This document shows, in pieces, positions 7,952 through 13,352 of a DNA stretch of 22,576 nucleotides. The stretch covers positions 1 through 22,576 of the IMG/VR virus record IMGVR_UViG_3300008107_001457; one strand, given 5' to 3'. Every line of letters starts with the position of its first letter. Within the stretch, counting starts at the first letter, position 1. Under the pieces are notes generated by a model. It did no database searches. It saw only the letters and a program-made list of their open reading frames with translations, and was not told where the DNA came from. Both the position numbers and the translations under genes were made by a program. This DNA is from a virus.

Positions 7952-7984
7952 TTTGGTATTTTGCATTTACTGCCGTATATTTAT
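7952..7984 (+). promoter_or_regulatory. Promoter P1 (TTTGG, 19 bases, TATATTTAT)
   Basis: TTTGGTAT at 7952 is followed, after a total gap of 19 bases from TTTGG, by TATATTTAT at 7976. Layout and spacing equal those of P2 (8065) and P3 (12848). It fits Bacteroidota -33/-7 architecture, with a variant -7 box. Downstream lies only a short stretch ending in a terminator. Confidence 0.6.
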
Positions 7985-7989
7985 TGTAA

Positions 7990-8055
7990 AGTATTATTTC
8001 ATAATAATAATAACTTATTGTCAATTAAGGGCCCTTAAAAAAAAGGGCTCTTTTT
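7990..8055 (+). ncRNA. Possible very short terminated RNA
   Basis: Promoter P1 is followed within about 70 bases by a strong terminator, and no reading frame with a credible start lies between them. The predicted RNA would be A/U-rich with a single G/C-rich terminator hairpin. It could be a small RNA, or P1 could read through to help express 8122 after attenuation. The 5' end is estimated from the -7 box. Confidence 0.3.
8027..8055 (+). terminator. Rho-independent terminator (AAGGGCCC hairpin)
   Basis: AAGGGCCC pairs with GGGCTCTT (one G-U pair) around a 10-base A-rich loop, followed by a T run. The 5' arm belongs to a 14-base perfect palindrome (TTAAGGGCCCTTAA, 8025-8038). Confidence 0.65.
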
Positions 8056-9729: not shown

Positions 9730-10164
9730 ATGGCAAACAAAGAAAAAAAACGCGAGTACATGAAAGTGTACAATCAGTCACAAAAGGCAAAACAATCAAA
9801 AGCAGCTTACAACGCAACCGAACGAGGTAAAAAATTACATCGTGAGGGTCTAAAACGCTATTATGCTAAAATTAAAGGCATATATGGTATTTTTGATGCT
9901 GAAACAAGTGAATGTTTATATATTGGAGGCAGCAGTGCTGTAAACAATAGAATTAATATTCACAGATATGCAATCAATAATTTAGATAAAGCAGCACAAC
10001 ATAGACCATCACAATTCCAGTTATACCAATTATTAGCATCACATAATTCAGTTATGTTTGAAATACTAGATGAGTGTGATAAAAGTATTGTAGGTCAATT
10101 AGAACAATTTTATATTAACATATATAATCCAAAATACAATAGTTATAAACATGATAAACTTTAA
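9730..10164 (+). CDS. GIY-YIG family endonuclease, probably homing
   Basis: The nuclease core of this 144-residue protein is clear. It has GIYGIF at residues 50-55, LYIGGSS at 63-69 (the YIG strand), Arg74 and His78 on the following helix, Glu125 as the metal-binding acidic residue, and a terminal YNPKYN (132-137), the usual asparagine-containing end. The first 48 residues are very basic and lack the fold; they could bind DNA. Free-standing GIY-YIG genes in phages are commonly homing endonucleases. It overlaps the next gene by 14 bases. No intron or split gene is seen beside it. Confidence 0.8.
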   Translation: MANKEKKREYMKVYNQSQKAKQSKAAYNATERGKKLHREGLKRYYAKIKGIYGIFDAETSECLYIGGSSAVNNRINIHRYAINNLDKAAQHRPSQFQLYQLLASHNSVMFEILDECDKSIVGQLEQFYINIYNPKYNSYKHDKL

Positions 10165-11248: not shown

Positions 11249-11397
11249 AAATAGAAATTATAGAATCAGTTTTTTTTGGAAAATCAACATGGAGAGTATA
11301 CTGCAATGGTGAATTAACTTATACGTGTGATTCAAAAATGCAAGCAATAGAATATTCAATTCAAAAATATGGACATTCAGCTGTTTTCCCCTCATAA
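11245..11397 (+). CDS. Small protein with GTG start, overlaps terminase
   Basis: This 50-residue frame begins at GTG, which overlaps the preceding TGA (GTGA), and ends 29 bases inside the terminase gene. The product, VKIEIIESVFFGKSTWRVYC and then NGELTYTCDSKMQAIEYSIQKYG, has a strand-strand-helix pattern (W-x-V-Y-x-N-G, then a helix) similar to short single-domain phage proteins of the DUF2188 type. The in-phase overlap supports a real gene; the GTG start lowers confidence. Confidence 0.45.
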   Translation: MKIEIIESVFFGKSTWRVYCNGELTYTCDSKMQAIEYSIQKYGHSAVFPS

Positions 11398-12631
11398 AGG
11401 TCAAAAACAAATTATTGATAAGTTTGCCGATAGTGAACATAAATTCGGTATCGTAGCAACTGGTAGACAATTTGGCAAATCATTACTTGCACAAAACCTA
11501 ATGTTGTATTGGTTATTAAAAACATCAAATCAAAAGGGTGCTTGGATAACACCTGTATATAACCAATGTAAGAAAATATTTGATGAATTAACTAATGCGG
11601 CTAATCCAGTTATCACAAAACAAAATAAAGCAGATTTAACAATACAATTTATCAATGGAAGTACTTTACAATTTTTATCTACTGATAATTACAATACCAT
11701 ACGTGGATTTAGTTTCAATTACATGGTATTGGATGAGGCAGCATTTATTAAACAAGATGCAATTGAACAAGCAGTAATGCCTACATTAACTGCAATTGGT
11801 AAAAAATGTTTAATTATATCTACACCTAAATCCAAAAACTGGTTCTATGAGTATTTCTTACGTGGTAACACGCCTAATAACGTTTATATTTCATTCAAAG
11901 GTATTTCTCGAGACAATCCATACGTAAATAAAGACTTCCTTATAGAACAACATAAATCGCTACCTGCCGACATTTATTATCAAGAGTATTTAGCTGAATT
12001 TACTGATTCAGGTAATGACGTATTTACAAACTTAGATTTAGTATGTATGATAGATGAATGGGGAATACCAAAAAGAACTGAACGATACTATATTGGAGTT
12101 GATACAGGAATCACTAATGATTTTACAGTTTGCGTTATCCAGAGCGAATCAGGACGAGTCGAAAAAATTATTAGAACTAACGGACGCACATTTGAAGAAA
12201 TTGGAAAGGATATCGTACTTGAGTGTAGTAGATGGAATGTCACTGGAGGATTTTGTGAAACAAATGGGATTGGATTGGCCATGTTCGAGCTCCTTAGACC
12301 CCGAATCCGAAAACTAATGCCATTTACAACAACACAAGATAGTAAAACAGAGGGTGTTCGTAAATTAATTTATGATATACAAGAGGGTAAAGTTGAATTA
12401 CCAAGTAAAAAATTAATGCCTGAAGTGTTTGATGAAATGAGTGCCTATACATTTAAATACGCTGCTAATGGTAATATATCTTTTACACACCCAAATGGAA
12501 TGCACGATGATTTAGTTGATGGAATTATGTTAGCTAATTTAGCACGTAATAAACAAGCATTTACTAAAAATAAATTATATATAGGAAACATTAATAAAAC
12601 ACAAACACAAGACAATGGGATTCGAATTTAA
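11369..12631 (+). CDS. terL: Terminase large subunit
   Basis: The packaging motor ATPase and nuclease has 420 residues. The N-terminus FSPHKGQKQIIDKF is the typical Q-motif region. Walker A is GRQFGKS at 32-38, and Walker B with the catalytic acid is MVLDEAA at 119-125 (D122, E123). The coupling motif STPKS is at 151-155. The RNase H-like nuclease begins at GVDTGIT (243-249, D245), with the second acidic segment at FCETNG (295-300, E297) and the third at HDDLVDG (379-385). All catalytic positions are present, so the protein should be active. The start was chosen at the ATG giving the standard N-terminus, even though it overlaps the previous small frame. The adjacent 3' gene overlaps by 17 bases. 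Confidence 0.93.
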   Translation: MDIQLFSPHKGQKQIIDKFADSEHKFGIVATGRQFGKSLLAQNLMLYWLLKTSNQKGAWITPVYNQCKKIFDELTNAANPVITKQNKADLTIQFINGSTLQFLSTDNYNTIRGFSFNYMVLDEAAFIKQDAIEQAVMPTLTAIGKKCLIISTPKSKNWFYEYFLRGNTPNNVYISFKGISRDNPYVNKDFLIEQHKSLPADIYYQEYLAEFTDSGNDVFTNLDLVCMIDEWGIPKRTERYYIGVDTGITNDFTVCVIQSESGRVEKIIRTNGRTFEEIGKDIVLECSRWNVTGGFCETNGIGLAMFELLRPRIRKLMPFTTTQDSKTEGVRKLIYDIQEGKVELPSKKLMPEVFDEMSAYTFKYAANGNISFTHPNGMHDDLVDGIMLANLARNKQAFTKNKLYIGNINKTQTQDNGIRI

Positions 12632-12869
12632 ATCAGATCAAGAACCAAAACAATTGGTTGACAGTAAAACAGTATTATCAGTAAATAATAATGTAGAGAT
12701 AGTAAGTGAAAACGACTTAACACAACCTATATTTGCTGAAGGTGAGGAAGAAAAATTAGCTATTCAATTTATTGAGGAAAATGAATTGTATGTTAAATTT
12801 ATGTTATGGTGTGGGATTCAAGATCAATTAAAAAATCTTAAATCTAGTTTGGCATCCACAAACGAATAA
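12615..12869 (+). CDS. Small acidic hypothetical protein
   Basis: This 84-residue protein begins 17 bases before the terminase stop. It is acidic in the middle (AEGEEEKLAIQFIEENELY), probably helical at the end (VKFMLWCGIQDQLKNLKSSL), and has no recognised domain. It is the last gene of the operon; its 3' end holds the TTTGG box of promoter P3. A terminase- or virion-associated role is possible only by position. Confidence 0.6.
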   Translation: MGFEFKSDQEPKQLVDSKTVLSVNNNVEIVSENDLTQPIFAEGEEEKLAIQFIEENELYVKFMLWCGIQDQLKNLKSSLASTNE

Positions 12870-12880
12870 ACTATATTTAT
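12848..12880 (+). promoter_or_regulatory. Promoter P3 upstream of the structured RNA
   Basis: TTTGGCAT at 12848 and TATATTTAT at 12872 are 19 bases apart, identical in layout to P1 and P2. The -33 box lies inside the preceding gene. No gene with a proper start follows for 270 bases; a set of hairpins does. Confidence 0.6.
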
Positions 12881-12883
12881 GTC

Positions 12884-13079
12884 CACAAGATAGGTTTTTT
12901 TCACTGCCATGTTATTTCCTATCCTTGTGGCATTTGTTTATTCTTAAGGAGCGTAATGGGGGGTTAAAGTTAACTTTGTGCCATTTTCAGTATTCTATTC
13001 AAATACCCCCCGCTCCATTTTTTTAACACTTCTATTCATTTCATATTTTTCTTGGGGCGAAAGCCCCTTCCTTTTTTTT
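12884..13079 (+). ncRNA. Candidate structured noncoding RNA beside terminase
   Basis: Three hairpins follow promoter P3. Stem 1 is CCACAAGATAGG (12883-12894) with CCTATCCTTGTGG (12918-12930), perfect except for a single bulged base. Stem 2 is GGAGC (12948-12952) and GGGGGGT (12958-12964) with ACCCCCCGCTCC (13005-13016), and its large loop contains the perfect palindrome AAAGTTAACTTT (12966-12977). Stem 3 is GGGGC-GAAA-GCCCC (13054-13067) and works as terminator. Both large loops contain TGCCAT. Stem 1 starts at the predicted transcription start. No plausible coding frame crosses it. Alternative: stem 1 or 2 are simply terminators of the upstream operon, stem 2 also being followed by a T run. 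Confidence 0.5.
13054..13079 (+). terminator. Rho-independent terminator with GAAA tetraloop
   Basis: GGGGC-GAAA-GCCCC is a perfect five-pair stem with a GNRA tetraloop, followed by TTCC and a long T run. It is the strongest terminator in the window and would define the 3' end of the RNA beginning near 12884. Confidence 0.8.
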
Positions 13080-13087
13080 GCCCCTAG

Positions 13088-13120
13088 GTTGGATATACGG
13101 ATATCCTTTCGTATATTAAT
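13088..13120 (+). promoter_or_regulatory. Promoter P4 before the 66-residue gene
   Basis: GTTGGAT at 13088 and TATATTAAT at 13112 are again 19 bases apart. The start codon follows 31 bases later. The spacer contains a hairpin, GGATAT-ACGG-ATATCC (13091-13106), which could be an operator. Confidence 0.5.
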
Positions 13121-13151: not shown

Positions 13152-13352
13152 ATGTACAAAACACAATTAGTTACAACAAAAGGAGAGGCAATTAGAACCT
13201 TTATCTCCGCAACACGTCCTGCAACTCGTTTTGGTTCTGAAGGAGTTGAAATCACTTACACTGACAGTGACACTAGTTTTACCGTAATGGGTAGCTGGAA
13301 TGTTATTGTAGAAAAAATGGCAGATGATGAGGTGAAACTATATAAAAAATAA
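13152..13352 (+). CDS. Small hypothetical protein, own transcription unit
   Basis: The 66-residue product (MYKTQLVTTKGEAIRTFISA, then TRPATRFGSEGVEITYTDSD...MGSWNVIVEKM) is predicted to be strand-rich and is not recognised. It has its own promoter (P4) and terminator (13383), making it a monocistronic unit between packaging and tail genes. This isolation suggests a regulator, an anti-defence or host-takeover protein, or simply a highly expressed small protein. No helix-turn-helix, metal site or signal peptide is visible. Confidence 0.6.
   Translation: MYKTQLVTTKGEAIRTFISATRPATRFGSEGVEITYTDSDTSFTVMGSWNVIVEKMADDEVKLYKK

Follow-up and report, generated by a model that had tools for sequence, protein, structure and literature searches.

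The window, meaning the whole 22,576-nt stretch of IMG/VR virus record IMGVR_UViG_3300008107_001457 that was analysed, is 22.6 kb long, compared with 26-31 kb for several relatives. Near its middle the gene for the large terminase subunit is followed by a small open reading frame, orf84, then by a predicted structured RNA and by orf66. The features of the locus are as follows.

11369-12631, plus strand: terminase large subunit, ATPase and RNaseH-like nuclease
12615-12869, plus strand: orf84, a small protein whose gene precedes the RNA at homologous loci
12848-12853, plus strand: -33 promoter element TTTGGC, within the 3' end of orf84; Flavobacterial-type layout
12872-12879, plus strand: -7 box TATATTTA
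12884-13024, plus strand: predicted small RNA of about 140 nt (covariance model, covariation)
12883-12930, plus strand: hairpin 1, arms 12883-12894 and 12918-12930, loop 12895-12917
12905-12910, plus strand: UGCCAU in loop 1
12948-13016, plus strand: hairpin 2, lower stem 12948-12952/13012-13016, upper stem 12958-12964/13005-13011, loop 12965-13004
12953-12957, plus strand: conserved one-sided 5-nt bulge GUAAU (roughly RNAAU in the family)
12966-12977, plus strand: 12-nt palindrome AAAGTTAACTTT in loop 2
12975-12988, plus strand: UUUGUGCCAUUUUC in loop 2
13018-13024, plus strand: U-tract after stem 2, probable intrinsic terminator
13054-13079, plus strand: back-up intrinsic terminator with a GCGAAAGC loop, which the family does not conserve
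13152-13352, plus strand: orf66, the next gene, with a promoter-like sequence of its own at about 13089-13117

The original prediction placed an RNA gene here on the strength of a dedicated promoter, stable stems and a terminator. The promoter, said to share its layout with two others, is present; TTGG-N19-TATATTTAT occurs at 7953, 8066 and 12849, three copies in the window against 0.05 expected by chance. Nearly all homologues retain TTGG or GTGG at the -33 position, and the spacing from promoter to hairpin 1 is short and fixed across them. Promoters of Flavobacterium psychrophilum carry TAnnTTTG located at -12 to -5 (PMC9723704), and setting TATATTTA at these positions puts the start of the RNA at about 12884. 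At the other end, the GC-rich stem 2 is followed by a U-tract, the 8 nt past the stem holding a mean of 5.5 T versus 2.5 in the background (28 members); stem 2 and the U-tract are probably an intrinsic terminator, with the 3' end of the RNA at about 13024. Since the U-tract follows hairpin 2 and the promoter is kept, the RNA should extend from 12884 to about 13024 and thus measure about 140 nt rather than the 195 nt initially proposed. A covariance-model match spans 12884-13026 (82.9 bits). The GNRA-loop terminator that had been described does exist at 13054-13079, but it does not serve as the conserved end of the RNA, being missing in L012, L037, L046 and L047. In a subgroup of six relatives (L024, L049, L007, L013, L014 and L015), a conserved AATGTAACGCTTTCGAGAAAAC lies after stem 2, ahead of a GC-rich terminator.

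The predicted folding energy was -57.2 kcal/mol, versus a mean of -38.9 kcal/mol for shuffled sequences (z -4.6), and none of 200 shuffles folded as well. Both predicted stems were recovered: the 12-pair hairpin at the expected start of the promoter (12883-12930), which has a single bulged C, and the second stem with its 40-nt loop and 12-nt palindrome, to which we add the conserved 5-nt bulge. Across the family, hairpin 1 has a U-rich loop with (U)GCCAU and is followed by a linker, and hairpin 2 consists of a lower stem, the one-sided 5-nt bulge, an upper stem rich in G and a loop enclosing an inner hairpin; in relatives this small inner hairpin covaries, and it occupies the site of the window palindrome AAAGTTAACTTT.

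Covariation had been put forward as the check on these stems. A MAFFT alignment of 17 sequences, in whose fitting structure played no part, contained 11 pairs with two-sided changes, and 96.4% of cells were paired, versus 47-61% in slid registers. A covariance model extended membership to a terminase identity of about 61-64%; in the 28-member alignment, 20 of 23 pairs had changed on both sides and 96.7% of cells were paired. All six modelled pairs of hairpin 1 changed on both sides among relatives, as did 10 of the 13 in hairpin 2, where pairing was 99-100%. Placed on the orf84 tree, coincident changes numbered 70, compared with 16-33 for slid (misregistered) pairs. Compensatory change is thus strong. 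A possible pairing of loop 1 with the stem 2 bulge (CCAUUA/UAAUGG) falls in columns that hardly vary. The Rfam search that had been suggested alongside returned no family match, with nothing relevant at gathering or at permissive thresholds. By sequence, the element has what is expected of an independent small RNA, namely its own promoter, its own 3' end and a conserved secondary structure. Conservation and covariation strongly support the claimed RNA gene, and we regard it as very probably real.

The terminase protein retrieved 51 related contigs from IMG/VR, and more were added by a scan based on an alignment. About 30 phage contigs carry a homologue of the RNA at the equivalent position; the order terminase, orf84, RNA element is found in lineage contigs that extend beyond orf84. 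Among 11 records searched whole, the RNA was found in ten, in single copy each, the eleventh stopping within the terminase gene; one contig, whose ends overlap, has the RNA at both ends. Two pattern scans of viral collections together with the covariance model confined the RNA to the window's phage lineage. Other pattern-scan matches were attributed to chance, as in L171, an unrelated GC-rich prophage, and 72 other viral loci searched with the covariance model gave no convincing match. Named phages yielded no DNA match by blastn, and their terminases are distant relatives only, with at most about 27% identity among the matches listed; a genome scan turned up remote relatives of the terminase, at 36-38%, in a Flavobacteriaceae metagenome assembly. 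These latter relatives and the promoter type suggest that the hosts are Bacteroidota, and the RNA's carriers form an uncultured phage group that probably infects this phylum.

TGCCAT lies in both large loops, as had been claimed (12905-12910 and 12979-12984). Most of the 28 aligned members retain GCCAU, which is also found in loops on unrelated stems: relatives at 55-65% terminase identity have hairpins at the locus with stems unrelated to those of the window, and GCCAUU and UUUGUG(A/C)CAUUU are retained in the loops of these hairpins. The window's own loop 2 sequence, UUUGUGCCAUUUUC, has UUUGUGCCAUUUU in common with a loop of L197 and is one base off the UUUGUGACAUUU of L180 and L207. By appearance, the CAU-containing motifs of the window loops, UGCCAU and UUUGUGCCAUUU, are complementary to start codons.

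This complementarity was most evident in the relatives. The loop motif UUUGUG(A/C)CAUUU is complementary to start codons; AAAUGUCACAAA is the complement of UUUGUGACAUUU, and AAUGUCACAAA complements the loops of L180, L186 and L207. In fetched relatives AAUGUCACAAA had 13 contexts, nine of them starts of ORFs of at least 31 codons (many being unrelated genes), three the RNA loops of L180, L186 and L207 on the other strand, and one intragenic (L217). Among 610 non-redundant starts, ATGTCACAAA was the commonest 10-mer, with 8 seen versus 0.15 expected. Relatedness inflates such counts, and the motif had been picked out before it was tested. The relatives' loop motifs match start-codon complements over 11-12 nt within the same genomes, and in L186, L207, L215 and L181 the loops paired with their own genome over longer stretches than shuffled loops did (p 0.005 for all tests taken together). 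The enrichment at start codons is partly generic, since 22 of the 89 contexts of the 15-mer AAAATGTCACAAATG in unrelated viruses are gene starts.

The RNA of the window, like those of its close relatives, matched gene starts no better than shuffled RNA did, and no target was found within the window. Loop 2 predicts AAUGGCACAAA as a start; no gene in the group's fetched contigs begins with it, and none begins with AATGGCACAAA. The predicted candidate start sequences are AAUGGCACAAA and AAUAACAUGGCAGUG for the window RNA and AAAUGUCACAAAUG for that of L207 and L186. Several relatives are longer, so the target of this RNA may be missing from the window, or may be a host gene. Two specific pairings were tried and rejected: when loop 1 was set against the ATGGCA starts of homing-endonuclease and neck genes, the own loop was not consistently the best, and ATGGCA gene starts were not enriched in the window clade; loop 2 UUUCAUAA of close relatives showed only a slight excess against UUAUGAAA starts. 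Long antisense matches of the RNA within its own contig included none that was convincing. Separately, the gene product encoded at 9730-10164 of the window has a GIY-YIG-like stretch (KGIYGIFDAETSECLYIGGSS); GIY-YIG-like genes are variable among relatives, and several have an ATGGCA start.

We reasoned that the element may be a standalone small RNA of the antisense type that acts in trans, its loops pairing with translation-start regions, a reading that we adopt tentatively, with a little under an even chance of being right. Transcription would begin from a host-type promoter where orf84 ends and yield an RNA of about 140 nt, which would fold into two hairpins, hairpin 2 and the U-tract terminating transcription; the exposed loop motifs UGCCAU and UUUGUGCCAUUU would then pair in trans with translation-start regions and block ribosome entry, the genes concerned belonging to the phage, to the host or to a rival phage. 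We infer transcription, antisense action and a target in the window phage, and the trans mechanism is carried over to that phage from its relatives, since the target evidence comes from them and none from the window. A regulatory RNA was among the alternatives listed with the original prediction, and it is the one that best fits the sequence evidence.

A trans-acting RNA could instead work by binding protein, its loop motif and 5-nt bulge being recognised by a phage or host protein for which it would act as decoy or scaffold. Members with changed stems retain both the loop hexamer and the bulge (about RNAAU), and no target mRNA was found in the window clade, two observations that favour protein binding; this reading does not predict the 11-12 nt matches to start-codon complements in the relatives' own genomes, and we hold it to be unlikely, though it stands second after pairing through the loops in trans. 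A cis role is more doubtful still. The position at the 5' end of a transcript, the two hairpins, the conserved bulge and the same-strand genes downstream would suit a leader or an antitermination element of a continuing transcript resembling put of HK022, which allows polymerase to pass terminators downstream and in which two hairpins at the transcript 5' end have important unpaired bases. Unlike put, the window RNA is then followed by a terminator-like U-tract and by genes with their own promoters; the U-tract follows hairpin 2 family-wide, and the downstream segment, of about 180 to 1200 nt, contains inserted small ORFs with promoters of their own. Such insertions, which separate the RNA from orf66, speak against a leader acting in cis, and the leader alternative offered earlier is accordingly less likely than the trans antisense type. 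In L049 a tRNA gene (1696-1766) lies shortly after the RNA, in a variable stretch before the orf244 homologue.

The 6S-like alternative, also offered earlier, is likewise less likely than the trans antisense type. 6S RNA is a long hairpin with a large central bulge that mimics an open promoter; there was no match to a 6S family in Rfam, and the window RNA has two separate hairpins with a one-sided bulge of 5 nt. That the conserved unit functions as DNA, for instance as a site for packaging or for replication, might be argued from two contigs (L001 and L004) that end or start inside it, but the ends of circular-assembly contigs can lie anywhere, the promoter and U-tract are strand-specific and at fixed places, and G-U pairs and an asymmetric bulge are retained on one strand, making a DNA role very improbable.

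Least probable of all, and ranked behind even the DNA element, is a phi29-like packaging RNA working with the terminase, which had been raised as speculation. Like the phi29 prohead RNA (RF00044), which forms a ring on the prohead, the window RNA is a small, structured phage RNA of similar length that adjoins the gene of the packaging ATPase in its lineage. In contrast to it, the window RNA has no family match, RF00044 remaining unmatched at the gathering score and up to E 10, and it is not tied to the terminase. A packaging RNA, needed alongside its ATPase, would be expected in close relatives, and some terminase relatives lack the window RNA: in L204 and L213 (60-61% terminase identity) and in L033 and L034 (59%) the terminase gene and the orf244 homologue are only about 50-70 nt apart, with no RNA there. 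In L212, L215 and L216 an analogous hairpin precedes the orf244 homologue, and genes separate it from the terminase. The phi29 RNA is described as unique to its group and is encoded near the genome end, and it may stand in for a function that was lost along with the nuclease, the nuclease domain of the phi29 ATPase being vestigial (PMC11476376); the nuclease domain of the window terminase is intact, the protein matching Terminase_6C with invariant acidic residues D245, D251, E297, D380 and D381.

Sequence evidence for a short, structured and independently transcribed RNA, with loops complementary to starts in relatives, likens the element to known phage trans-acting small RNAs; it differs from them in having no Rfam family and no target found in the window. 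Rfp18 of Flavobacterium psychrophilum similarly has a flavobacterial sigma-A type promoter, a structured form and predicted pairing through a stem-loop, but it is encoded by the host and its predicted targets are host proteases (PMC9723704).

No description of such an RNA was found in the literature searched. The element represents a covariation-supported RNA family without an Rfam entry, carried by uncultured phages that lack close relatives in the searched phage collection. Should the loops pair with start codons, they would constitute a defined, testable antisense system in hosts that initiate without Shine-Dalgarno pairing, and a clear case of conserved loops on unrelated stems. Extending the trans loop-pairing reading to the whole family, interchangeable hairpins of unrelated stem and start-codon-complementary loop would silence genes in such hosts, the loops tracking the starts of their targets, possibly genes of competing phages or homing endonucleases; this wider scheme is speculative, and we rate it as clearly less likely than the trans pairing itself.

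A different RNA, a terminator hairpin, has a constant loop, GUUUAGUGACAUUUA, on varying stems in L182 (3850), L212 (4571), L215 (3210) and L216 (7081), and sits before the orf244 homologue in the last three. The complement of the loop (ACGCAAAAATGGCACAAATGGAA) of a hairpin at 3730-3790 of L197 matches an ORF start of L186 (4087) at 22 of 23 bases. Lastly, the window may have a second, shorter RNA gene at 7953-8055: another promoter with the TTGG-N19-TATATTTAT layout lies there, an intrinsic terminator (AAGGGCCC..GGGCTCTTTTT) comes about 70 nt after it, and the stretch has no ORF. L001 has an identical copy of this region, and other relatives mostly lack it.
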